Below are positions 3,311 to 50,311 of a DNA stretch of 64,000 bases, piece after piece. A model generated the notes under the pieces. That model saw nothing but the letters and a program-made list of their open reading frames with translations, made no database searches and was not told the origin of the DNA. The stretch is from Raoultibacter timonensis (lineage in GTDB: Bacteria; Actinomycetota; Coriobacteriia; Coriobacteriales; Eggerthellaceae). Both the position numbers and the translations under genes were made by a program. Every line of letters begins with the position of its first letter. Position 1 is the first letter of the stretch. The stretch spans positions 2,459,446-2,523,445 of the forward strand of contig NZ_LT964679.1 of the NCBI RefSeq assembly GCF_900240215.1, given 5' to 3'.

Positions 3311-4087
3311 ATGAAAGAAACACCTGCATACACCATCAGTACACGAGGAGTGGTGATCTCCTGCATCCTCGCCGCGGCAATCGTCATTGCAATCGGATTC
3401 GCGATTTCGCTCACCAAACCCCCGACCGCCCATGCATCCTCTTTCGACTCGCATGGATTTGATTATTTCGCCCTCCAGGAAGCAACGTCCGCCAAAGATG
3501 CCGAGCATGCGAACCTTATTCGGGAAGAGGCCCGCGAGTCGGCATCGCGCGCCCAGCGGATAGCCGCTGAAACGCAAGCCGCCAAAAACGGCGGTCAGGC
3601 CGCCGCACCGCAAAACCGCATCAGCACCGATCTCTTCGAGTTCGACCTGCCCGAGTACTGGAGCGACCGCGTGAGCGTAACGTATAACGAGGATGGCGGC
3701 GTTTCGGTGTATGCAAACAACTTCCCTGAGGCGAGCCTCGTTACCCTCAAGATTACCGAAGCTTCCGATTCCGCGGCCGAGGACAGCGCGGACACCGCTA
3801 TGGTGTACAGCAAAGACCTGGGGGGCGGCAAGCACGTCGAACTTTGGATGACGAATTTCGCCTGGGTCGTATTCGACGTCAATCGGCCTGAAGCCTCTCC
3901 CGAGGGATGGCAAGCCGATCTGCTCGACCAATCGGTCGCAAGCGAACTCGTCGATCTGCAGACGCTCGGTACCGTTCCCGTCGAAAAGATCATCCAGCCC
4001 GCCAAAGCCGATGGCACCCAATTTGAGACCCAGATCGATTGGGAGAACGCCGTAAACGGGATCGTACCCACGATCGTCGTGAAGTAG
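3311..4087 (+). CDS. Membrane-anchored extracytoplasmic protein, function unknown
   Basis: A 258-residue protein that I do not recognise. The N-terminus has one hydrophobic segment at about residues 13-33 with a short charged head, giving a signal-anchor topology with most of the chain outside. Residues 45-90 are Ala/Glu/Arg-rich and probably helical or coiled coil. The remainder (LFEFDLPEYWSDRVSV onward) looks like a globular beta-rich domain typical of actinobacterial surface proteins that begin with a description of a carboxy-terminal ligand fold, but I cannot name it. The ATG at 3311 follows GAAGGAG with nine-base spacing. It is monocistronic and followed by a strong hairpin. Confidence 0.75.
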   Translation: MKETPAYTISTRGVVISCILAAAIVIAIGFAISLTKPPTAHASSFDSHGFDYFALQEATSAKDAEHANLIREEARESASRAQRIAAETQAAKNGGQAAAPQNRISTDLFEFDLPEYWSDRVSVTYNEDGGVSVYANNFPEASLVTLKITEASDSAAEDSADTAMVYSKDLGGGKHVELWMTNFAWVVFDVNRPEASPEGWQADLLDQSVASELVDLQTLGTVPVEKIIQPAKADGTQFETQIDWENAVNGIVPTIVVK

Positions 4088-4141
4088 GAAAGCGCGGCTT
4101 CGCCGATCGGTTGTTCTTGCTTTGCGCTTAGATCGATTCCA

Positions 4142-4175
4142 AAAATGGGGGCGCCCGCATATGCGGGCGCCCCTT
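4142..4175. terminator. Perfect 13-bp palindromic terminator
   Basis: A 26-base perfect palindrome at 4148-4173 with arms GGGGCGCCCGCAT and ATGCGGGCGCCCC. In the minus direction it is followed by ATTTTT, so it is a canonical intrinsic terminator for amiF; on the plus strand it follows the unknown membrane-anchored gene with a weaker U-tract. Confidence 0.85.
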
Positions 4176-4224
4176 CCCTGCTCGCACGAGTCCTACATCG
4201 GGAGCTCGGCGCCTGATGCAACAA

Positions 4225-5229
4225 CTACTGACCGAAGCGACCGCCAGTCGTCGGGTAACCGTAGATGCTGCCGTCTTTGATCTTCATCTCGTCTTCCCAA
4301 GGAAGCTTGTACTTGCCAGCCGCGAGATCCTTGATGTAGGTCAGGCCGGCATCGCTCTCGCCGCCGGGAAGGGCAACGTAGCCGCGATGGCCGAGGTTGT
4401 AGATGTTGTTCTCGAGACCCCAAGAACGACGCGCCTGATCGGCCTGGCACGGGAACACTTCGCCCGTAACGATTTCCCACGGATTGCGATGACCCTGAAC
4501 GAGGACGGTGCCGTCGTAGTTCGTAATCTGGCCTTCGCCGAAGTAGTAGAACACGTTGTCGTAACCAGCCAGGTTGACGGCCAGCGTGTACATGAGGTTG
4601 TGCCACGCGTTGGAGCGGTTGGTGAGGATCCACTGCTCGTTAACCTGCGTGCTGTAACCGGAAATGCGGATGTACACGTTGCAGCCCTTGTAAGCGGCTT
4701 CGCGAGCAAGCTCGGGAATCATGCCGTCGTGGCAGATGCATACGGCGAGCTTGGAACCTGCAGGGCCGTCGCATACCGGCATGCCGAGATCGCCGGGATA
4801 CCAAGGCTCGATCGGGTTCCACGGGAACAGTTTGCGATACTTCAGGCAGATTTCGCCGTTCGGATCGATGATGATGGCGGTGTTGTACGGGTTCTTGGTC
4901 GGATCGGGGTTGCGCTCCATGATGGAGAATACGCCGTAGACGCCGGCTTCTTTGCATGCCTGGCCGAACGTGTCGGTCTCAGGACCGGGAACGTCGCACA
5001 GGAATTCCTCTGTCAGCCACTTGGCGGTGTTGAGGCCCTGAGTGCTGTACTCGGGGAATACGATGAGCTCGAGGCCCGGATAGCCGGCCTTGGTCGCGTG
5101 AAGCGTGCGAACGATGCTCTCAATCTGCTTGTCGATGTCGGCACGTGAATTAACGATAGGAACGGGGAACTGGATCAGTGCTGTCAAGAAGCCATTTTCA
5201 GGTTTGTTCATACTTCCGATGCTGCCCAT
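4225..5229 (-). CDS. amiF: Formamidase (AmiF)
   Basis: A 334-residue nitrilase-superfamily formamidase, hydrolysing formamide to formate and ammonia in the cytoplasm. The chain begins [15 protein letters not shown] and is very close in sequence and identical in length to what I recall of Helicobacter pylori AmiF. The catalytic triad is Glu60 (VFPEYS), Lys133 (KYRKLFPW) and Cys166 (VCICHDGM), the same numbering as in the Helicobacter enzyme. The ATG at 5229 is preceded by AGGAGG; a longer in-frame ATG at 5292 would add 21 residues not found in the family. It is downstream of, and probably co-transcribed with, the AmiS/UreI-type channel gene. Cytoplasmic ammonia release would buffer acid, and formate could feed the formate hydrogenlyase encoded nearby. 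Confidence 0.95.
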
Positions 5230-5353
5230 AACTCTTCCTCCTGTCTCGACGAAGCCGCATGCTTCGCCGTACGCTTCGGCAAGTGCCTTCACTCGCCTTC
5301 GATTTACAGGGAAAACAGGTTCGTTTTCCCAAAAACCCTGATTTCGGTACGTT

Positions 5354-5890
5354 TTAGTACAGGAACTTCCACCAATCCGCCAAAAGCATGTATCCAGGGA
5401 TCCAACAGGTGATAATTCCCACTACCACGGTGTACCAGCCGATGAACTTCGGGCCGAGGGTTATCTTCATTTCTGCTCCAGCAAACCAATACGCCAACCA
5501 CAAGGTTCCCCAGATGAGCCATATGACTCCAAAGATCGGATCGGCGTCCATAAACGAAAGGTATGCGCACGGCAGCGTATTCACTGCAACGAACAGGCAA
5601 TACCACGCGAGCGGCCTTCCGTCGAGCTGGAAAAGATTCGTACACCCCACGAACAGATAGGTAAAACCAAAAAGCATGTTGGTAGCGATTCCGTAAAAAT
5701 CGGCACCGATACCGCTCGCGCCAACGGTCATAACCGTACACGCAATGTTGATGGCATTGATGACCACGAGCAGACCGCCGGTAAAGAAATTCATCACCGC
5801 CATAGCCTTTGGATCCCACTTCTGAAGCGTTCCAACCCCGTTCATGAAGAGAACGCAGCCGACATAGAGCAAACCAAGTCCTAAGGTCAT
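5354..5890 (-). CDS. amiS: AmiS/UreI family amide/urea channel
   Basis: A 178-residue integral membrane protein with about six hydrophobic segments covering almost the whole chain, typical of the AmiS/UreI family. Members are proton-gated urea channels (UreI of Helicobacter) or short-chain amide permeases (AmiS). Its place 124 bases upstream of formamidase on the same strand indicates that it admits formamide or related small amides for AmiF. No urease genes are in the window, so urea is less likely as the substrate. The start ATG at 5890 follows GAGGGGG. A strong promoter lies upstream. Confidence 0.88.
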
Positions 5891-37477: not shown

Positions 37478-39160
37478 TTACGCTCCTTTTGCCCGATCTG
37501 CTGCGAACTGTCCGGCACGACGTCCGCCCGTACAGGCGCGGCCGTGGCTCACGCCCGAAACGGTGATCGGATAATCGTCGAAGAAGAAGCTGCCCGAGCA
37601 GTTACCGGCAGCCCATAGACCTTCGATGGGCTTCTTCTCGGCATCGAGCACCTGCTGGTTCTCATCGATTTCCAGTCCGCCGAGCGTGATCAGCAGCGTC
37701 GTTCCCGAATGCACCGCGTAGAACGGCGGCTCGGTGATCGAGCTCAGGCACTGCGCACGTTTGCCGAAATCGGTATCGACGCCCGCTGCGCACAGCTCGT
37801 TGTAATGCTCGATGGTCGCCTTCGCCGTTTCCTGGTCGATGCCTTCCATCTTCGCAAGCAGCCCTTCGATCGTGTCGGCCGAAAGAATCTGGCCTTCTTC
37901 TATAAACTGCTGTATCTCTTCGGGATTGTGCAAAGGCGAACGGAAATCCTTGCATACCACCATGCCCATGGCGGGGCCGTCGGTTTCCCATTTGGCATCC
38001 CAGATGACCCACTTCATGTGCCTCGGCTGGGCGTTATGGGCACGGCAGACGTAGGCGTACGGCATGTCCTCGTTGCAGAATCGCTCGCCGAAATCGTTGA
38101 GGTACAGCCACGGCTGGCGCGTCAGCGGGATCGATGGCATATGCTCAAGCCCCTCGACGCCCTCGTCGAAGTACATCGGGCAATGCGGCGCAGGGTCGAT
38201 CGAGGCGCCCGCCCACGCTCCCATGCGAATGCCGTCGCCGGTGTTGTGCGCGGGAGTCGTGATGTTGTATATATCCTCTTCGTGGTTCGGAACGAACGCG
38301 TCCATCATTTCGGTATCGGCTCCGTAGCCGCCCGCTGCCAAAACCACGCTCTTCGCATCAACCTGGTAGTGCTTCGAGCCGTCTTTGTACACGACGCCGG
38401 TCACCGGTCCGCTCTCGCCGCGAATGAGCTGCTCGGCCGTCACGTTGAAACGGATCTCCACTCCGAGCTCCTCGGCATAGGCCGTAAAAGCCTTCGCCCA
38501 CCCGATCGCAAACGGAGGCTCGTAGCCCGCTTCGGCTCCTTCGGCCAGAAGATCGTCGGTCGGCACGATCTGGAATGCGTCGGTTGCGAAATGCTCATAC
38601 CATGCATCGGGAATAACCTGCATCTCCTCGGGCATCGGCGCAACGGTGATGCCGTGGTCGGTGAGCATGCCTGCGGCCCAATCGAGCGCCTCGGCCGAAT
38701 GGTCGACCCACGCCTTAACCACACGGTAATCTCCCCTGTGCCCGCCCCAGCGCAGAACCTCCTGCAACACGTCCTCTTTGCGCGCCGTCAGATCGATGCC
38801 GACCTCCTTCTGCAACGAACCGCCGATCGCGCCGTAATCGATGCCGCGAAAGTTTGCGATGCCGGTCTTTTCGAGGACAAGCACGCTCGCCCCCTTCTCG
38901 GCAGCCGAGCACGCAGCCGAAAGCCCGGCCATGCCCGCACCAACGACCACAACGTCAACCGATTCGGCGCCTTCAACCGATCCGATCGCTTCGGGTTCGG
39001 TTTCCCAACTGTAGGTTTTCACGCCTGCCTTCGCGTTAGCGACCGCCTCCGATTCCTGCGGAGCGCATCCCACGAGCCCCGCCACTCCCATAGCGGCTAC
39101 CGATGCCGCGCCAAGACCGAGAAAGCTCCTTCTGCTCAATCCCTTTTTCTGCCCTTCCAT
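37478..39160 (-). CDS. Tat-exported FAD-dependent reductase (fumarate-reductase-like)
   Basis: A 560-residue flavoprotein of the fumarate/urocanate reductase superfamily. The N-terminus LSRRSFLGLGAA carries a twin-arginine motif (Arg10-Arg11) followed by a lipobox LVGC with Cys32, so it is likely a lipoprotein folded before export. The FAD motif VVVGAGMAGLSA is at 71-82. The C-terminal FAD segment is GLWAAGNCSGSFFFDDYPITVSG. It reduces an alkene- or similar acceptor outside the membrane; the electron acceptor is unknown. There is no FMN-binding domain, so electrons must come from a separate carrier. ATG 39160 has GGAGG. A LuxR membrane regulator is divergent from it. Confidence 0.9.
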   Translation of the reverse strand: MEGQKKGLSRRSFLGLGAASVAAMGVAGLVGCAPQESEAVANAKAGVKTYSWETEPEAIGSVEGAESVDVVVVGAGMAGLSAACSAAEKGASVLVLEKTGIANFRGIDYGAIGGSLQKEVGIDLTARKEDVLQEVLRWGGHRGDYRVVKAWVDHSAEALDWAAGMLTDHGITVAPMPEEMQVIPDAWYEHFATDAFQIVPTDDLLAEGAEAGYEPPFAIGWAKAFTAYAEELGVEIRFNVTAEQLIRGESGPVTGVVYKDGSKHYQVDAKSVVLAAGGYGADTEMMDAFVPNHEEDIYNITTPAHNTGDGIRMGAWAGASIDPAPHCPMYFDEGVEGLEHMPSIPLTRQPWLYLNDFGERFCNEDMPYAYVCRAHNAQPRHMKWVIWDAKWETDGPAMGMVVCKDFRSPLHNPEEIQQFIEEGQILSADTIEGLLAKMEGIDQETAKATIEHYNELCAAGVDTDFGKRAQCLSSITEPPFYAVHSGTTLLITLGGLEIDENQQVLDAEKKPIEGLWAAGNCSGSFFFDDYPITVSGVSHGRACTGGRRAGQFAADRAKGA

Positions 39161-39322
39161 GGTTTCCTCCCATCGAACGTCTGCGTCCATACCGATAGTG
39201 TGTCGCTCCCGAGCGCGCCGCACCATCGATGCGAAGTGAGTATTCGCAGGAAAACGCATCGGTAAAAAGCAACGATTGACCCGAATTGGGCGCTATGCGA
39301 CCATGAATCGACGGAGGTGGCG

Positions 39323-40858
39323 ATGATAGCCGTATGGTGGGACAATCTGAGGGAAAGCTGCGATATGCGCATGATGGCAGGCACATCGGCCGCCGTCTGC
39401 TGGCTGCTCCTGCTTGCCATCTCGCCGGTGTTCTCAACTGCGCCGACGCTGATCGCCCAAGGGCTGTCGTGGCGCATCGTTGCGGTCTTCTGCTCGGTCG
39501 TCCTGTTCGTGATTTCGCTCGTCCTTGGCGCAAAGGGCGAGAACCCGGAAGGAAAGGCGCTTTCTTCGGGAGTGGCCTTCACGGGCGCGACAGCGTTTCT
39601 CGGCGTTTTGCTCCATCGCTTTACCGAGAGTGCCGCGATTGATTTTCTCGCTGCGGTCTTCGTTGCCTGCGGCGTGGCAGGGCTATGCCTGGGGTGGGCG
39701 CAGCCATTTTCGATGATTCGCCTGAGAAAGCGCGTTGTGGCATCCGCCGCGGGAGCTATCTGCGGATGCATTCTCTACTTCGCCATCGTCGCCATACCCC
39801 AGCCGTTCGCACTGTTCGTCGGAGCATGCCTGCCGATCGCCTCGGCGGCTTGCTGGATGGTGCTGCGTGCGAGCGCCGCTCCCGACGATGCCGAATCCGA
39901 AACCGGCTTTCACCTTCAATCGGCGGATCGCATCGCACGCGATGGTTCTGGTGCGGATCCTGCGCAGGGCATCGAGACGCACAGAGCCGTTCTCCATCCG
40001 TTCGGACGCGAACTCTCGGCCGCCATCGCCTTGTACGGGATGCTGTTCGTGCTCGCCGGGCACGTGTTACCCGAAACCGAGTCGACGTGGGTCCTCTCGG
40101 TTGTGCCGGGCGTTGTAAACGTTGCAGCATTTCTCATCATCGAAATCGCGCTTACGCTGTACATGGTCAAGCGCATCCACCGGGAAAACCCCGTCGTCGC
40201 CTACCGACCCGCCACCATACTCGTGGCCATTGCGTTTCTGCTGCTGCCGTTTTCAAGTTCGGAACTGTCGCTCGCCTGCATGGCCATCGCGTTTGCGGGA
40301 TTCGGAAGCTTCATGGTGTTCTTCTGGATCGTGATGGGCAACATCAGCCAGAAGTGGCGCCTCCCGTATCTGCGCGTGTACGCACAGGGGTTCCTCACGT
40401 TGCTGGCCGGTATCGCTGCCGGGGAACTCGTCGCCTGGCTTCTCGTTCTGATCCGACAACCCGGCTTCGACTACGTGGCCACGCTGAGCATCGTTTCGCT
40501 GTTTCTGCTCGTCGCGATGGCGTGGCAGATGTCGGACGGATCGCGCTTCGCCAACGAGACGAAGGAGATGGGCGGCCAGTTCTTCGAGCCCGATGCGTCC
40601 ATGCGAGACGAAGACGACAGCTCCGGCTCGCCCGACCTCGATCGCGTTGCCGAACGGTACCGTCTCTCCCCGCGCGAAGTCGAGGTGCTTGCGCTTCTGC
40701 TCAAAGGGCGAAGCATCCCCTACATCTGCGACGAACTGTTCATTGCCAAAAGCACCGCGCAAACCCATGTACGCCACATCTATTCGAAGATGGAAATCAC
40801 CGGCGGGCGCCAAGAGCTCATCGACCGGATCGAACAGGATGGATACTCTTTAGCCTGA
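39323..40858 (+). CDS. Membrane-embedded LuxR-type regulator
   Basis: A 511-residue protein with about ten to twelve predicted membrane helices (residues about 20-420) and a C-terminal LuxR helix-turn-helix (RLSPREVEVLALLLKGRS, then TAQTHVRHIYSKM; about 445-500). This layout, common in Eggerthellaceae, is thought to sense a compound at the membrane and to activate the neighbouring reductase gene. The ATG at 39323 follows GGAGG with five-base spacing; the in-frame GTG at 39317 overlaps the SD. It is divergent from the Tat flavoprotein, whose gene is its likely target. Confidence 0.88.
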   Translation: MIAVWWDNLRESCDMRMMAGTSAAVCWLLLLAISPVFSTAPTLIAQGLSWRIVAVFCSVVLFVISLVLGAKGENPEGKALSSGVAFTGATAFLGVLLHRFTESAAIDFLAAVFVACGVAGLCLGWAQPFSMIRLRKRVVASAAGAICGCILYFAIVAIPQPFALFVGACLPIASAACWMVLRASAAPDDAESETGFHLQSADRIARDGSGADPAQGIETHRAVLHPFGRELSAAIALYGMLFVLAGHVLPETESTWVLSVVPGVVNVAAFLIIEIALTLYMVKRIHRENPVVAYRPATILVAIAFLLLPFSSSELSLACMAIAFAGFGSFMVFFWIVMGNISQKWRLPYLRVYAQGFLTLLAGIAAGELVAWLLVLIRQPGFDYVATLSIVSLFLLVAMAWQMSDGSRFANETKEMGGQFFEPDASMRDEDDSSGSPDLDRVAERYRLSPREVEVLALLLKGRSIPYICDELFIAKSTAQTHVRHIYSKMEITGGRQELIDRIEQDGYSLA

Positions 40859-40990: not shown

Positions 40991-43963
40991 TCACTCCGCT
41001 TCGCCCAACCCCGAAAGGAGGTCCCTGAAACGAGCTACGTCTTCGATCTCCCAGCAAACGCTCGCAATCGCAAGCCGTCCGTCTTCGACACGTAGCACGC
41101 GACCGCGGTCGACCGTCCAGAACCAGCTTCCATCCTTGCGGGGCATGCGGTACATAGCCTCGTAGTACAGCCCCTCGTAGTACGTCGGCCCGATATCTTC
41201 GATCACCTGGGCGAGATCGTCGGGATGAATGGTGTTGATCACATGCCCGTCGATGCCGGCTACGAACTCGTCGAACGTACTGTATCCGAGCATCTCGACG
41301 ATTTGGCGATTCGCGTAGAAGAGGGGGAACCCATCCTCACAGTAACCGCCGATCAAACCGCATGGAACCGTTTGCGCGAACAAGTGCGAGGCGATGCTGC
41401 GGTACTCTTCGGTCAAAGCGTCGATGCCCTCGTTGATCGAAGTGATGCCAAGCACGCTATCGAGTACGGCCTGCGATGAGAGCAGCGCCTCCTCTTGCAG
41501 CTTCTGCTCGGTCACGTCGGATATCCCCGCGTAGAAGATACGCCGCTCGCCCTCGCTTTTGAGAAAGTACGCCTTCATATGAAACCAGCCGAGCTCGCCC
41601 GAAAGGCGGTACCGCCGAAACGTCGCTTCCGCGCCGGCGATGGGATGGCGTTCGGCTCGATCGAACATATCGAGGATCATCGGCAGATCATCGGGATGGA
41701 TCATGCGGTAAATCCAGGTCTGGCGCTCTCCGAGATCGACCGGATTGCATCCGGTTACCCGGTAGTAACCGTTGTTTACCTGCATGAGCTCGAAACGGTC
41801 GGAATAGACGGCGTATACCGCCATACCGCCTAGCAGGTTTTCGAGGATGGTGCGGCTCGCCGTGCCCCCGTCTTGCACCAAATCGGCCAGATCGATATCG
41901 TCGACGACGCGCGGAAGCACACCGCGATAGTCGATGAGCCCTTCGGTTTCCATAAGCGCTTCGAATTCGCTCTGCGGCATCGGACGGTAGAAGTAGAACC
42001 CCTGCGCGTAATCGCACCCGATTCGTTTCAAAAACTCTACCTGCTCTACGGTTTCGACACCCTCGGCAATGACGGGCATATCCATCAACCGCGCCATACT
42101 CGTCACGGCTTCCAGGATGCCTTCGCTTCGATTCGCGTCGTCGGCATCTTCGCGCAGCAAACCCATATCGATTTTCAGCGTATCCACTCCGATGTTCTTC
42201 AGCATGTTAAGCGAAGAATAGCCGCTTCCGAAATCATCCATGAGAACGGTAAAGCCCCGCCGCTGCAAATCGTCGACCAGATGCGTTACGCATTCGTCTT
42301 CGGCGTAAGCGCTTTCGGTGATCTCCACCTCGAGCAACTTCCGCTCGATCCCGTGATGCTCGACGATGCGCTCGAGCTCGTCGGCCACGTCGATGGCGCG
42401 CACGTCGGCGCGCGAAACGTTGACCGACACGGGAATAGGATGCCTGCCTTCGGCGATCCACGACGCAAGCAGGCCGCACGCCATATCCCATACATAGCGG
42501 TCAAGATAGACGATGAAACCCGTTTTTTCAAGAAACGGTACGAACTCCCCAGGGCCGACCAGCCCTTTTTCAGGATGGTTCCAGCGGACGAGCGCTTCGA
42601 GCCCCACGATACGACCCGTTCGGATGTTGCACTTCGGTTGCGCGTACAAAACGAACTCGCGCTGATCGAGCGCGCGCTGAATGGCGGCGAGCATCTTCGG
42701 TTCCTGCTCGAGCTCGAGCCCCATGCCTCGATCGTACCACGCGATACGGCGCGCATAGGTTCCCTTCACCGTGTTCATGGCGATCATGGCCCGATCGCAG
42801 AATGCGCTGACGGGCACATCGGAGCCGTCTACGCCGCACACGCCGATAGCGGGATAGAAGCGAACATCCATGGTTTCATCGGGAGCGATCGTACCGATCG
42901 CCGATTCGAGATCGCTATCGCGGGCGATTCCCGCAGGCAGCAACGCAACGAAATCGTCCGACCCGAAATAGCCCACCGAACCTTCGTGCCGTTCGCAGAA
43001 GGAAGCCAGTCGATCCGCGAGCGCGCGAAGCATGCGGTCTCCCACTTCGCGACCGTACCAATCGTTCAGCACCTTGAAGTGCTCGATATCGATGTAGACC
43101 ATCTCGTATCCGCCTGCGCGATCGGCGTCCGCAATCCTGCGCTCCACTTCGTCGAGGAAGGGGCGGGCACCCCAAAGACCCGTGATGGAATCGCGTTCGT
43201 CACGCGCAGCCAGGTCGCCGTCATCGCCGACTCGTGCAGCCTCATGGTCTTTCCTGCGCTGGACATCGGTGATGAAACACAGAAGCGAAGGGTCTTCGCG
43301 CTCTTCGCCGATAAGCGGCACGATGGAATGGGAAACCCAGCTCCACGTGCCGTCTTCCTTCAGCGTTCGAAACTCGCCGCCCGACACCTTCGCGCCGCGC
43401 TCGAGCACCCGTACAAGGCTTTCGTAGCTCCATAAGGCTCGGTACCGATCCCGATCCTCTTCGTGAATCGCGGACAGACGCGCGTCGCGTTCGTCGTCGC
43501 TGAATGCTCCGCCCATGCTCGGCATGACGTACTTCCCCGGCTCGTGGTACAGCACGCGAAACGTCCTGCGCACAACATCGATCTCGATAAGCTCATCGTA
43601 GGCCGAGCTGCCGTCGAGTTCGAGCAGCAGATTCTTGTCCGACTCGTCGATTTCCCTGCTCGCCATCAGCATGCAAGGACCGTGATCCGGCCAATCGATA
43701 TCGATGCACGTCGCCTCGAACCATGCATGCTTGTGATGGTTGTACAGCACGCTGCGGCCGAGGCGGTCGTCGTTTTTGCTGCGCCATGGGCAATCCGGGC
43801 ACGGTGCGCTCTCCCCCCGAACAACTTCGTAGCAACGATCGCCGAGACGGGCCTCGGGCATGGTTTTCATCGTATTCTGATCGAGGTAGACCAGCCGATG
43901 GTGGCTGTCTACCACATAGGCGTTCCACCGCTGCCTGCCGTCGGGAGCTGTTATCTCAGCCAT
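40991..43963 (-). CDS. PAS/GGDEF/EAL protein, likely c-di-GMP phosphodiesterase
   Basis: A 990-residue soluble multidomain protein. Order: a Cys-containing PAS-like module (1-100; GDRCYEVVRGESAPCPDCPW, Cys44, Cys55, Cys58), a PAS domain (about 115-240), GGDEF (about 250-420), EAL (about 435-680), and two PAS domains (about 715-985). The cyclase signature is altered to GSDDF (334-338), so synthase activity is doubtful. The EAL domain is complete: EALVRW at 456, ITESAYAED, DDFGSGYSSLNML and AEGVETVEQ. It most likely degrades c-di-GMP under control of the sensor domains. ATG 43963 has a GGCGGGG SD. It is divergent from a cyclase with the same Cys module. Confidence 0.9.
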   Translation of the reverse strand: MAEITAPDGRQRWNAYVVDSHHRLVYLDQNTMKTMPEARLGDRCYEVVRGESAPCPDCPWRSKNDDRLGRSVLYNHHKHAWFEATCIDIDWPDHGPCMLMASREIDESDKNLLLELDGSSAYDELIEIDVVRRTFRVLYHEPGKYVMPSMGGAFSDDERDARLSAIHEEDRDRYRALWSYESLVRVLERGAKVSGGEFRTLKEDGTWSWVSHSIVPLIGEEREDPSLLCFITDVQRRKDHEAARVGDDGDLAARDERDSITGLWGARPFLDEVERRIADADRAGGYEMVYIDIEHFKVLNDWYGREVGDRMLRALADRLASFCERHEGSVGYFGSDDFVALLPAGIARDSDLESAIGTIAPDETMDVRFYPAIGVCGVDGSDVPVSAFCDRAMIAMNTVKGTYARRIAWYDRGMGLELEQEPKMLAAIQRALDQREFVLYAQPKCNIRTGRIVGLEALVRWNHPEKGLVGPGEFVPFLEKTGFIVYLDRYVWDMACGLLASWIAEGRHPIPVSVNVSRADVRAIDVADELERIVEHHGIERKLLEVEITESAYAEDECVTHLVDDLQRRGFTVLMDDFGSGYSSLNMLKNIGVDTLKIDMGLLREDADDANRSEGILEAVTSMARLMDMPVIAEGVETVEQVEFLKRIGCDYAQGFYFYRPMPQSEFEALMETEGLIDYRGVLPRVVDDIDLADLVQDGGTASRTILENLLGGMAVYAVYSDRFELMQVNNGYYRVTGCNPVDLGERQTWIYRMIHPDDLPMILDMFDRAERHPIAGAEATFRRYRLSGELGWFHMKAYFLKSEGERRIFYAGISDVTEQKLQEEALLSSQAVLDSVLGITSINEGIDALTEEYRSIASHLFAQTVPCGLIGGYCEDGFPLFYANRQIVEMLGYSTFDEFVAGIDGHVINTIHPDDLAQVIEDIGPTYYEGLYYEAMYRMPRKDGSWFWTVDRGRVLRVEDGRLAIASVCWEIEDVARFRDLLSGLGEAE

Positions 43964-44284
43964 ACCCCGCCTTTCGCTCACGAGCTTACCGCACCGTTCG
44001 GCCTCGGGCGAGCGGTCAAAGCCCTGCTCGCACGATTCGGCTCGTTCGATGCCGCACGCGCGAACCCCATACGCGCATGCAAGAGTATTGTATGAGTGTA
44101 TCACGTATCTTTATCTGCGTCGCATCGCCATCGCACGATGCGGCGCATCATCAACCAAACGTTCGTCCTGCGACTATGGGCACCCGCCTGGTTTTCGCTG
44201 GAGCACCCTTTATAACTAAGTATTTTAGTTTTATATAAGCTATACTGGCATGCACTAACGCATTCGATCCGTTTGGGAGCGAGC
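43964..44284. other. Divergent promoter region of the c-di-GMP pair
   Basis: A 321-base gap. The right part is AT-rich and has TATACT at 44241-44246, 39 bases before the cyclase ATG, plus the inverted repeat AACTAA/TTAGTT (44214-44230). The left part has a minus-strand TACAAT near 44088-44093 as a possible -10 for the phosphodiesterase. No gene is supported. Confidence 0.45.
44214..44246 (+). promoter_or_regulatory. Candidate promoter and inverted repeat for the cyclase gene
   Basis: AACTAA (44214-44219) and TTAGTT (44225-44230) form an inverted repeat placed where a -35 would be, ahead of TATACT at 44241-44246. The -35 hexamer itself is poor, so the repeat may bind an activator. Confidence 0.4.
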
Positions 44285-45682
44285 ATGGCGTCAAAGCAAA
44301 ACCGTTCGGAGCACGCCACTAATTCCTCGCCCGATTCCCGCAGCGAGGAGTCGACCATGGACGGCAGCGACATCGCAGCCGTCATATGCGAAGAAAGCGA
44401 CGGGTTCATCTACGTTTCCGACACATGCACCAACGAGCTTTTGTACCTCAACAAAGCAGCGCGCGATCTGCTCGGCTCCGCAGACAACGATTACCGTGGC
44501 AAGGCGTGCCATCGCGTGCTATACGGCCTCGAGGAGCCGTGTCCGTTCTGCACGAACGACAAGCTTTCTCTCGACGAAACGCACTGCTACCAGCGCTATA
44601 GCGAACGACATGGGCGCTATCTTCTTTGCCGTGATAAGCTCATCGAAGTAGACGGCAAGCCCGTGCGGCTCCAAATAGCCGACGACACCACCCCCGAAGT
44701 CGAGGAGCGCAGCAGTCTCGAAGCGCGCCTGGCCGTCGAAGAAACGCTTGTGCGCTGCGCTCGCACGCTTTCGGGAAACGTTGAGGAAGCATCGGGGATC
44801 GACGAGCTGCTTCGCATCCTCGGGGAATTCTACAATGCCGACCGCGCCTACGTGTTCGAATCGACGCTCAGCGGCATCGCCATGACAAATACCTACGAGT
44901 GGTGTGCAGCCGCAATATCCCCGGAAATAGACAGTCTTCGCAATGTGCCCCTCGATGCATTCGACAGCTGGATACAGCAGTTCGATTCCATCGGCATGGT
45001 TCACCTCATCGACATCGGAAGCACGCTCGACCACGATACGGAAGAATACCGCACGCTCGCACCTCAGGGGATAGACAGCCTGATCGTCGTGCCGCTGTAC
45101 GAGGGGGGCGGCGTGATGAGGGGCATGCTCGGCGTCGACAATCCACGGCGCAACACCGAAGAGGACCGGCTGCTGCGTTCCCTCACGTATTTCGTGCAAA
45201 ACGATCTCGAGAAGCGCCAGATGCTCGAGCGGCTCAACGAGCTCTCGCACGTCGACAGCCTTACGGGAATAGGAAACCGTACCAGCTACCTCGAAAAGCT
45301 CGTCGAGTTCTCCGAGAATCGGCCCGCTGCCTTCGGGGTCGTATTCGTGGATATCAACGACCTCAAAATCGCGAACGACACCCAGGGGCACTCGTTCGGG
45401 GACAGGATCATCCAGCGGGCGGGACAACTCCTCAACGAATCGTTTTCCGGCAGCGTGTTCCGCATCGGCGGCGACGAGTTCGTCGCGTTCGCTATCGATC
45501 TGCCCCGCAACGAGTTCGACCGCCGTATCGAAAGCTTCAAAGAGAGCATTGCCCGGGACAGCATTGTCAACGTATCGGTAGGCGCCGTATGGGACGACGG
45601 CAATTGCGCTCCCCGCGATCTCGTCGCGCAGGCGGATGCACTCATGTACGAAGACAAGAGGAATTACCACTTCAGGCGGTAG
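44285..45682 (+). CDS. Diguanylate cyclase with Cys-PAS and GAF sensors
   Basis: A 465-residue protein making c-di-GMP. An N-terminal PAS-like module (about 30-130) holds Cys75, Cys86 and Cys89 in RGKACHRVLYGLEEPCPFC, the same pattern as in the divergent phosphodiesterase. A GAF domain follows (about 150-300; DRAYVFE, GIDSLIVVPLYEGG), then GGDEF (305-465) with an intact signature GGDEF at 395-399. Its allosteric inhibitory site (R-x-x-D) is not obvious. ATG 44285 follows GGGAG. It would be the synthetic counterpart of the neighbouring EAL protein. Confidence 0.92.
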   Translation: MASKQNRSEHATNSSPDSRSEESTMDGSDIAAVICEESDGFIYVSDTCTNELLYLNKAARDLLGSADNDYRGKACHRVLYGLEEPCPFCTNDKLSLDETHCYQRYSERHGRYLLCRDKLIEVDGKPVRLQIADDTTPEVEERSSLEARLAVEETLVRCARTLSGNVEEASGIDELLRILGEFYNADRAYVFESTLSGIAMTNTYEWCAAAISPEIDSLRNVPLDAFDSWIQQFDSIGMVHLIDIGSTLDHDTEEYRTLAPQGIDSLIVVPLYEGGGVMRGMLGVDNPRRNTEEDRLLRSLTYFVQNDLEKRQMLERLNELSHVDSLTGIGNRTSYLEKLVEFSENRPAAFGVVFVDINDLKIANDTQGHSFGDRIIQRAGQLLNESFSGSVFRIGGDEFVAFAIDLPRNEFDRRIESFKESIARDSIVNVSVGAVWDDGNCAPRDLVAQADALMYEDKRNYHFRR

Positions 45683-48929: not shown

Positions 48930-50075
48930 TCATGCCCCATCCCGCGTCTCCATGCCCGTCTTCTTTCGCCGCTTCTCCTCGTACATGCTTTCATCGAGCT
49001 GCCTGAGAAAACTATCGGCCCCGTCGCAGTCGAAGGCCGCACACTCGATCGCACCTACACTGAAGTCGATGCTCCCCCACGGCGCAGGATGTTCGTTCGC
49101 CTTGGCCTTGCCCGCCTCCAAGCGGGCGATCACCTCAGACGCCATCGGCCCATCCCCCGCATTCCAAGCAATGATGAACTCGTCTCCGCCGTAGCGCGCC
49201 GAAACGGCCTCCTTCGGTTCGCTTGCGCGGATGATCGCCGATAAGGTCTTCAGCGCCTCGTCGCCGCACGCATGGCCGAACGTGTCGTTGATGCGCTTCA
49301 AATCGTCGAGGTCGATCATAACGCCGCGCAACGTCGCATGCCGCGCGCCTGAAAACCACTTGTCCAGTCGATCCGCGAGAGCACGGCGAGTAGCCAGTCC
49401 GGTCAGTTCATCCGTGTACATCAGATCGCTCTGCGAAACCTGATAGATCATGAGCGCCGATACCGCATATGCGCAGGCAAGCGAGACGCTCCGATCAAAC
49501 AGCTGCACCACTTCGGCGACAAACGGAACCAGCGGGAACAAAGCGAACGGCACAATGATTCCACGCTTAACCCGTTTGCGCTGCGAGAAGAGCACCGCGA
49601 TTACGGCGAGCGCGCTCAGGTAGTTGAGCAGCGTGAACGCCCACATGAGCGCAAATCCCACAACAAAGCTGCCGTCTTGGCCGATAAAAAACATGTCTTT
49701 CGAGGCCAGATTCACCAGCACGATGCCCTCGTTTATCACCAGCACGCACGTGTAGAATGCCCTGAACGCGCGATTGCCGCCTCGCCCGAACAGCGCGCAA
49801 TCGACATAGCGCGCCCACATCCAAACGATTGCGGCATTTACGGCAAAGTACGCGCTTTTCGCCGCGAATGCGACATCCCTCGAAAGACCTTCGGACGACC
49901 CCGAAAAAACAAGATAGAGCATATCGAGCAAGAGAAACGCCATAACGAATACGACCAGTCCGAAGTACAGGCGGCCCGACGTTTTCCTGGTACGCGAAGC
50001 TTTCAGACCTCCCATCGTCACAAGCATGAAGACGATGGAAAGAAGATCGAGCGCTATGCTGCTATCGATATTCAC
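48930..50075 (-). CDS. Membrane diguanylate cyclase
   Basis: A protein of about 381 residues with six or seven N-terminal membrane helices (to about residue 205) and a C-terminal GGDEF domain (about 215-370) with an intact signature in RYGGDEFIIAW and the substrate residues DLDDLKRINDTFGH. It makes c-di-GMP in response to an unknown membrane signal. The start is uncertain: a GTG at 50075 puts the first helix (ALDLLSIVFMLV) near the N-terminus and follows AAGGGGTG at a long spacing; in-frame ATGs at 50111 and 50132 add 12-19 residues and lack an SD. Confidence 0.85.
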   Translation of the reverse strand: MNIDSSIALDLLSIVFMLVTMGGLKASRTRKTSGRLYFGLVVFVMAFLLLDMLYLVFSGSSEGLSRDVAFAAKSAYFAVNAAIVWMWARYVDCALFGRGGNRAFRAFYTCVLVINEGIVLVNLASKDMFFIGQDGSFVVGFALMWAFTLLNYLSALAVIAVLFSQRKRVKRGIIVPFALFPLVPFVAEVVQLFDRSVSLACAYAVSALMIYQVSQSDLMYTDELTGLATRRALADRLDKWFSGARHATLRGVMIDLDDLKRINDTFGHACGDEALKTLSAIIRASEPKEAVSARYGGDEFIIAWNAGDGPMASEVIARLEAGKAKANEHPAPWGSIDFSVGAIECAAFDCDGADSFLRQLDESMYEEKRRKKTGMETRDGA

Positions 50076-50311
50076 GAGCGGCGTTTCACCCCTTGCTACG
50101 CAGGCTCTCATCGCGCGGCAGAACCGTACCATCGGGTTCGCCCAGAAGAAACGCGCGCAGCCGAACTCCGAGAAGCCGCAAGCGAACGCGCGTCCTTCCG
50201 AATTCTACACCCGTGCCGCATTGAATATGTCTTAACCGGTCATCTTTACGGTAAACGCAAAGGCTTTCGCACCCGACAATGCAGCGAGCACGCCGAACGC
50301 CCGAGCAATCA

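Follow-up and report, generated by a model that had tools for sequence, protein, structure and literature searches.

In NreB, four cysteines of the PAS domain are reported to hold an oxygen-labile [4Fe-4S] cluster (PMC4601167), and a census of PAS domains mentions a few with a cysteine motif of this kind (PMC10468136). Here we describe a divergent gene pair of Raoultibacter timonensis whose products each begin with a PAS module that carries three cysteines. The pair lies in a stretch of 64,000 nucleotides (contig NZ_LT964679.1, positions 2,459,446 to 2,523,445), called the window below and numbered from its first letter. The left gene (40991-44104, minus strand) encodes a predicted cyclic di-GMP (c-di-GMP) phosphodiesterase (PDE), and the right gene (44273-45682, plus strand) a predicted diguanylate cyclase. 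PAS, GGDEF and EAL are domains of known kinds. The module at the head of both proteins is real, homologous and conserved, but it is a common sensor subtype, which we name the C-x10/11-C-x2-C PAS subtype and which both window modules fit with the spacing x10. In the open-licence literature we found no paper on this subtype, nor a cofactor or a signal for it.

An initial annotation of this DNA had placed two divergent open reading frames (ORFs) here, each with a PAS-like module in which one cysteine precedes a Cys-Pro-x-Cys motif by about ten residues; both ORFs and all six cysteines are found as described. In the PDE, the module spans residues about 62-157 (43634-43921, minus strand; supported by AlphaFold2 and by hhalign to cyclase-type modules) and the cysteines read C91-x10-C102-x2-C105 (43790-43834, minus strand), that is Cys44/55/58 counted from Met48. 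In the cyclase, it spans residues about 45-148 (44405-44716, plus strand; supported by AlphaFold2) with C79-x10-C90-x2-C93 (44507-44551, plus strand), or Cys75/86/89 counted from Met5. Exactly ten residues separate the first two cysteines. The PDE has in addition Cys144 (43673-43675, minus strand), the fourth invariant cysteine of PDE-type modules. That a predicted synthase and a predicted hydrolase share one PAS-like module, as had been claimed, is borne out by the comparison of profiles: hhalign of 7 PDE-type against 81 cyclase-type modules gave a probability of 98.6% and an E value of 5e-16 with the cysteine columns in register, the E value being that of a single comparison and not of a database search, and ordinary PAS profiles not being included as a control. 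The two window modules are 29% identical in pairwise alignment, and whole-protein BLASTP of the PDE against the cyclase did not return the module as significant (18.1 bits, E 1.5). As judged from these alignments, the two modules are distant homologues. Counting of the motif was rejected as evidence of homology. The DNA pattern for C-x10-CP-x-C is common (62 occurrences in the genome of the window and 22 in a reversed control, the hits not being classified), and for this reason profiles were used instead.

AlphaFold2 predicts a PAS fold for the cyclase module (mean pLDDT 88.7, pTM 0.80) and PAS topology for the PDE module (mean pLDDT 86.6, pTM 0.78). Pfam sees little of either. The cyclase module does not reach the PAS gathering cut-off (PAS_8, 15.4 bits vs 21.8) and, searched alone, has 0 Pfam matches at E 0.01; for PDE residues 62-157, no Pfam PAS match is among the best stretches listed. 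Pfam matches at E <=0.01 among the 81 modules were to PAS_8 (28), PAS_9 (18) and PAS_4 (2). A sequence search of the PDB with the module gave no credible relative, only three hits (resistin, haemagglutinin), all with E > 1. By structure, the PDE module found weak PAS matches in Foldseek (best E 2.2e-3, 0 at 0.001 or better). The listed PDB matches of the cyclase module are PAS and LOV chains, the best of them a LOV PAS (E 9.4e-7, 18% identity), and its 24 best rows are all LOV proteins or chimeras built on them, apart from one blue-light receptor. These rows, together with the location of the first cysteine at the start of a helix, speak for a flavin-cysteine photosensor of the LOV kind. Such a photosensor is very improbable nonetheless. 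The LOV flavin signature is GxNCRFLQG, and it is absent here: the window modules have RGKACHRVLYG and LGDRCYEVVRG, and the consensus of the subtype is GxKCYxxLQG. LOV domains are not known to have an invariant CxxC. Other PAS chains score equally well, as in VIA, where the cyclase module reached a Z of 11.0 for the BvgS PAS vs 10.7 for PpSB1-LOV and many PAS chains were tied.

The cysteines are conserved. An alignment of 81 cyclase-type modules (that of the window cyclase and the best 80 of 84 wider relatives) has C51, P61, C62 and C65 in 81/81 rows; of the two search seeds for this alignment, one contained the second and third cysteines and neither contained the first. The proline of the proposed Cys-Pro-x-Cys motif is not conserved in the PDE type, where the position following the first cysteine of CxxC is variable. 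Whole-protein searches were made over 60 related genomes, the own genome included and some being draft assemblies, at cut-offs of 1e-100 and 1e-40. Matches extending over the module had all three cysteines in 15/15 cases for the cyclase (of 16 places, one of which starts later) and in 7/8 for the PDE (of 11 places), the window's own protein counting in each set. The initial annotation had tied its proposal to the conservation of the three cysteines, and conserved they are, in the 81 rows as in the matches of both kinds. The sole exception among the 8 PDE homologues is locus L166, in which the domain region is kept and all three cysteines are gone; their absence all at once is what would be expected if the three form one site. 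A further set of 21 PDE-type rows was selected by the three-cysteine motif and not by Cys144, which is nevertheless present in 21/21. In sequence terms, the window modules are of different subtypes, 29% identical and with three vs four invariant cysteines.

The same alignments bear on the possibility that the cysteines are a structural zinc site or a packing feature, and that the PAS domain senses a small ligand in its pocket with no redox role. Other polar positions of the 81-row alignment (N32, Q56, N67, W78, N82, D93, R104 and E106) are nearly invariant, as in a ligand pocket, and the module is found on many outputs. A structural site, however, should be hard to lose, and yet the domain region of L166 persists without any of the three cysteines. 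We regard this possibility as rather doubtful, while giving it some weight.

The module is by no means confined to the window. A profile search of the own genome found it at 8 places at E 1e-6, 7 of which have the cysteines. These seven c-di-GMP proteins are encoded by the two window genes and at loci L060, L061, L069, L070 and L073, with a spacing of x11 between the first two cysteines in L061 and L069. One of these loci, L060, encodes a paralogue that matches the window PDE along its full length and is 43% identical across 994 aligned columns. In L070, PAS(Cys)-GAF-GGDEF is joined to a GGDEF-EAL part, so that one module heads both output types. The survey of the class that the initial annotation had suggested now shows the module in 42/396 genomes at 1e-6, with a profile that includes both window modules. 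C-x10-C-x2-C was present in 20/20 further profile hits fetched as short stretches, in a search whose profile favours the motif. Among 80 wider loci, the outputs (Pfam, E 1e-5) were GGDEF in 33, EAL in 27, HATPase_c in 39 and HD in 1, a few of the proteins running off their contigs; these loci include Clostridia, Desulfovibrio, Bacteroidetes, Planctomycetota, Methanoculleus and a Lokiarchaeote. The module thus heads cyclases, PDEs, the PAS-GAF-GGDEF-EAL fusion and histidine kinases. It is a PAS subtype widespread in bacteria and archaea and is not special to the window pair.

Both window proteins have the domains of c-di-GMP enzymes. The PDE-type gene is an ORF of 1037 amino acids, or 990 from Met48 (nucleotide 43963), just 5' of which an AAAGG-like ribosome site is seen by eye. 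Pfam and the module comparisons give the layout PAS(Cys)-PAS-degenerate GGDEF-EAL-PAS-PAS. On the minus strand, the Cys-PAS module is followed by a weak second PAS (43250-43417, residues 230-285; PF08448, 19.3 bits, below the cut-off of 23.1), a degenerate GGDEF (42932-43195, residues 304-391; PF00990, E 2.5e-15) with GSDDF at residue 381, the EAL domain (41981-42685, residues 474-708) and two C-terminal PAS domains (41072-41854, residues about 751-1011; PF13426, PF13188, PF08447). The EAL domain scores 218 bits (PF00563, E 1.5e-64) and has seven EAL-type motifs (EALVRW503, NVSRAD562, EITES594, DDFGSGYSS623, LKIDM643, AEGVE680 and AQGFY700), which we take to hold the residues with catalytic roles in active enzymes. 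By this score and these motifs, the protein is predicted to be an EAL phosphodiesterase, hence a hydrolase. The cyclase gene is an ORF of 469 amino acids with its likely start at Met5 (44285) or Met29 (44357) and the layout PAS(Cys)-GAF-GGDEF from Pfam and the module. Its GAF domain (44801-45184, plus strand, residues 177-304) scores 23.6 bits with PF01590, for which the cut-off is 22.4, and its GGDEF domain (45245-45664, plus strand, residues 325-464) 73 bits with PF00990 (E 3.1e-20). With an intact GGDEF at residue 399 the protein is by its sequence a diguanylate cyclase and a predicted synthase. The degenerate GGDEF and further PAS domains of the PDE, and the GAF of the cyclase, had been omitted from the initial annotation. 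No membrane segment is evident in either protein by eye, no predictor having been run, and both are predicted to be cytoplasmic c-di-GMP enzymes.

The neighbourhood of the PDE relatives points to respiration. In 16 other fetched loci of the PDE clade, dmsD lies within 2.0 kb in 16/16 and dmsC within 1.1 kb in 15/16, both genes belonging to loci of the DMSO-reductase type; the loci were picked from profile and whole-protein hits, and the adjacency represents one inherited arrangement and not 16 independent events. In 11 mapped loci, dmsC-dmsD are convergent with the PDE gene. Representatives of the encoded proteins were assigned by model: DmsA of L198 (TIGR02166, 976 bits, cut-off 778; one representative), DmsD of L206 (PRK11621, 190 bits, cut-off 162; one representative) and DmsC of L199 and L200, which pass the Pfam cut-offs; one DmsB is below the NCBIfam equivalog cut-off (192 vs 214 bits). 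The dms-linked PDE copy of the genus is L060/L197, and a molybdopterin-reductase place lies 4.5 kb from the PDE of L060, on the dms strand. In a second PDE clade (L214, L215, L216 and L220) there are no dms genes in the stretches looked at. PDEs of this clade adjoin an htpG-like gene in 3/4 loci (L215, L216 and L220), identified as Hsp90 by Pfam for L220 and by look for the others. Elsewhere, in genome G368 (L241:1023-5855, minus strand), a second PDE-type gene is split into two open frames of 519 and 1091 codons.

The cysteines, the enzymes and these neighbours suggest a mechanism. We hold the chances about even that the module is a cytoplasmic thiolate metal, iron-sulfur or thiol sensor that tunes c-di-GMP turnover to the redox state. 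The three invariant cysteines would sit in a helix-loop between PAS strands and bind a metal or iron-sulfur centre, perhaps together with the fourth one of PDE-type modules; less likely, they would serve as reactive thiols. When this centre is gained, lost or oxidized, the PAS dimer could shift, and the helix that follows might carry the shift to the GGDEF or EAL domain, raising or lowering its output. A thiolate metal or iron-sulfur centre fits best because of the three invariant cysteines, their joint loss in L166 and the respiratory neighbourhood of the relatives; it would work on the pattern of NreB. Since PDE relatives are tied to respiratory reductase loci, the signal is probably the redox or electron-acceptor state. 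The homology of the modules, the conserved cysteines, the intact GGDEF and EAL motifs and the dmsC-dmsD synteny of the PDE relatives are observed; which cofactor and signal the window proteins use, in which direction each enzyme would respond and whether the two genes act jointly are inferred. A metal-free thiol-disulfide switch, made of the CxxC and the upstream cysteine, is an unlikely alternative. The CxxC stands beside a third cysteine in both modules, and PdeC is a known case of disulfide control of a c-di-GMP enzyme (PMC8846402). By the same source, however, PdeC and HmsC act in the periplasm and the cytoplasm is typically reducing, whereas the window proteins have no membrane segment evident by eye.

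Several observations weigh against the metal or iron-sulfur sensor and its link to respiration, and we gather them here. L166 retains a cysteine at the position of Cys144, as aligned by eye, and the fourth cysteine therefore need not belong to the three-cysteine site. C492 and C697, in the EAL region of the PDE, are likewise invariant in 21/21 PDE-type rows although they lie outside the module, so that invariance alone is no proof of a cofactor. Cyclase-type modules have three invariant cysteines only: the position in register with Cys144 is cysteine in 4/81, and an optional cysteine at position 91, present in 27/81, is not in the Cys144 register. Where NreB has four cysteine ligands, the PDE type has four invariant cysteines as candidate ligands and the cyclase type three, and L166 keeps the fourth alone. 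For a Bacillus relative of NreB, with a PAS domain only 26.7% identical, the sensing of H2S is reported, and heme as its possible means (PMC9918477). The dms arrangement is itself variable: dmsB/dmsA follow on the same strand in 6/11 mapped loci and not in all, four of the mapped stretches ending within 1 kb, and L197, of the same genus, has no dmsB/dmsA in the 3 kb beyond dmsC-dmsD. The window PDE has no dms gene beside it; it adjoins a FAD_binding_2 flavoprotein and a LuxR-type regulator. It also has the longest end branch of the 21 rows (1.2 changes per column); in the other tree only the branch of L166 is longer, and the window PDE is without a starred placement in either. Finally, respiratory reductases are dense in the own genome. 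Its 3.93 Mb contain 125 matches to FAD_binding_2 and 109 to the molybdopterin domain, on average one every 18 kb or so; 121 and 99 of these places entered the comparison that follows, after fragments were dropped by eye. Within 2.5 kb of a reductase are 5/26 c-di-GMP genes vs 41% of random stretches, and within 4 kb 9/26 vs 50%, with a high baseline in that random stretches may overlap a reductase, and with five gene spans approximate. Showing no enrichment, general reductase proximity was rejected as evidence after this control, and of the gene neighbourhoods we kept just the synteny of the PDE clade with dmsC-dmsD.

A bolder form of the redox-sensor proposal can be stated. The four-cysteine PDE PAS would be an iron-sulfur or metal sensor that links c-di-GMP breakdown to dimethyl sulfoxide (DMSO)-reductase-type respiration in Eggerthellaceae, and the window would hold a fast-diverging second copy, recruited beside a three-cysteine cyclase into a local redox-set switch. 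We consider this quite unlikely, having lowered a slightly higher first estimate in view of the fourth cysteine that L166 keeps alone and of dmsB/dmsA, which are not found everywhere.

The initial annotation had gone further and proposed that the two enzymes would form a push-pull switch; on this reading, a common signal would turn one of them on and the other off. The divergent adjacency in the window and the homology of the modules favour such a switch, and c-di-GMP genes do cluster in some relatives (G121, L205). In a simulation with the gene number set at 3400 by assumption, 7 module genes gave one adjacent pair or more in 1.2% of trials, but a neighbour pair among all 26 c-di-GMP genes arose in 17%; the adjacency in the window, judged after the fact, is on these figures mildly unusual at best. 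The comparison of genomes is less kind to a dedicated pair. Of the 60 genomes searched, 7 have a PDE homologue and 7 a cyclase homologue (the own genome counted in each), with one other species to sample the genus, and the two genes are adjacent in 0/6 of the other PDE-bearing genomes, 4 of which hold both, far apart or on different contigs. Among the places listed for the genomes with a profile match, two module ORFs within about 2 kb of each other occur in 3/42 genomes (G000, which is the own genome, G121 and G235), and those of G121 and G235 are on the same strand, not divergent. The differing subtypes of the two window modules also speak against a switch of this kind, as does L070, where GGDEF and EAL stand together in one protein behind such a module. 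With the same module on cyclases, PDEs, a fusion and kinases, there is no sign that the window enzymes read one signal oppositely. Push-pull as a conserved unit was rejected, the adjacent pair being seen only in the own genome of the 60, and is not supported; a dedicated on/off switch formed by the window pair is unproven, and we consider it improbable.

Other arrangements of c-di-GMP genes were seen in the relatives. In G121 (L205:3859-9104), the gene immediately before the dms-linked PDE, on its strand, encodes a GGDEF-EAL protein that lacks the module (3859-5688); in G137 (L207:3578-9787), a look-alike not tested by Pfam (3578-5374) has this place. L195:4494-9490 (G121) holds a tandem of two Cys-PAS genes, one for a short cyclase and one for a long GGDEF-EAL protein. 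A different neighbouring pair, a Cys-PAS cyclase and an EAL protein encoded convergently, is seen both in the own genome (L073:2183-6670) and in the other species of the genus (L203:1839-6321; SBP_bac_3-GGDEF-EAL by Pfam), unlike the window pair.

Between the likely starts of the PDE and the cyclase lies an intergenic region (43964-44284) in which divergent promoters are expected. A promoter scan found one weak sigma-70-like match there (44251-44222, minus strand; mean 0.2 in shuffles), so for a shared promoter the region gave just this one weak consensus match. To the left of the pair are the reductase-like FAD_binding_2 flavoprotein (37478-39259, minus strand; PF00890, E 1.9e-47) and the LuxR-type (GerE) regulator (39317-40858, plus strand; PF00196, E 2.3e-11). 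In E. lenta, transmembrane LuxR regulators are described close to both kinds of enzyme, 19 to molybdenum enzymes and 50 to flavin enzymes (PMC9734109), in a paper that uses neither GGDEF nor c-di-GMP as a term. A third c-di-GMP gene lies 3.2 kb to the right of the pair (48930-50132, minus strand) and encodes a GGDEF protein of 400 amino acids with a membrane-like N-terminus by eye.

If the cysteines bind a redox cofactor, the module would offer a testable signal for a large class of unassigned sensors, and c-di-GMP would be linked to the respiratory state in a reductase-rich family. Among the closest described systems is NreB, the staphylococcal oxygen-sensing histidine kinase, which likewise has a cytoplasmic PAS with a cysteine set and is linked to anaerobic respiration (PMC4601167 and PMC8774646). 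The output of NreB is a histidine kinase, and its four cysteines compare with three in the cyclase type. DosP/PdeO shares the PAS-GGDEF-EAL order, and its model NF008467 matches the GGDEF-EAL part of the window PDE; however, DosP senses O2 by heme (PMC8846402), and the window PDE reaches 197 of 857 bits with the DosP model, far below the cut-off. PdeC, a CSS-motif PDE, and DgcZ, a cyclase with a zinc-binding CZB domain, resemble the window enzymes in that redox or zinc control depends on cysteines there, but their sensors differ from a PAS module, being a periplasmic CSS loop in PdeC and a helical CZB domain in DgcZ (same source). LOV proteins, finally, share the PAS fold and have a functional cysteine, but a single one where the modules described here have three.

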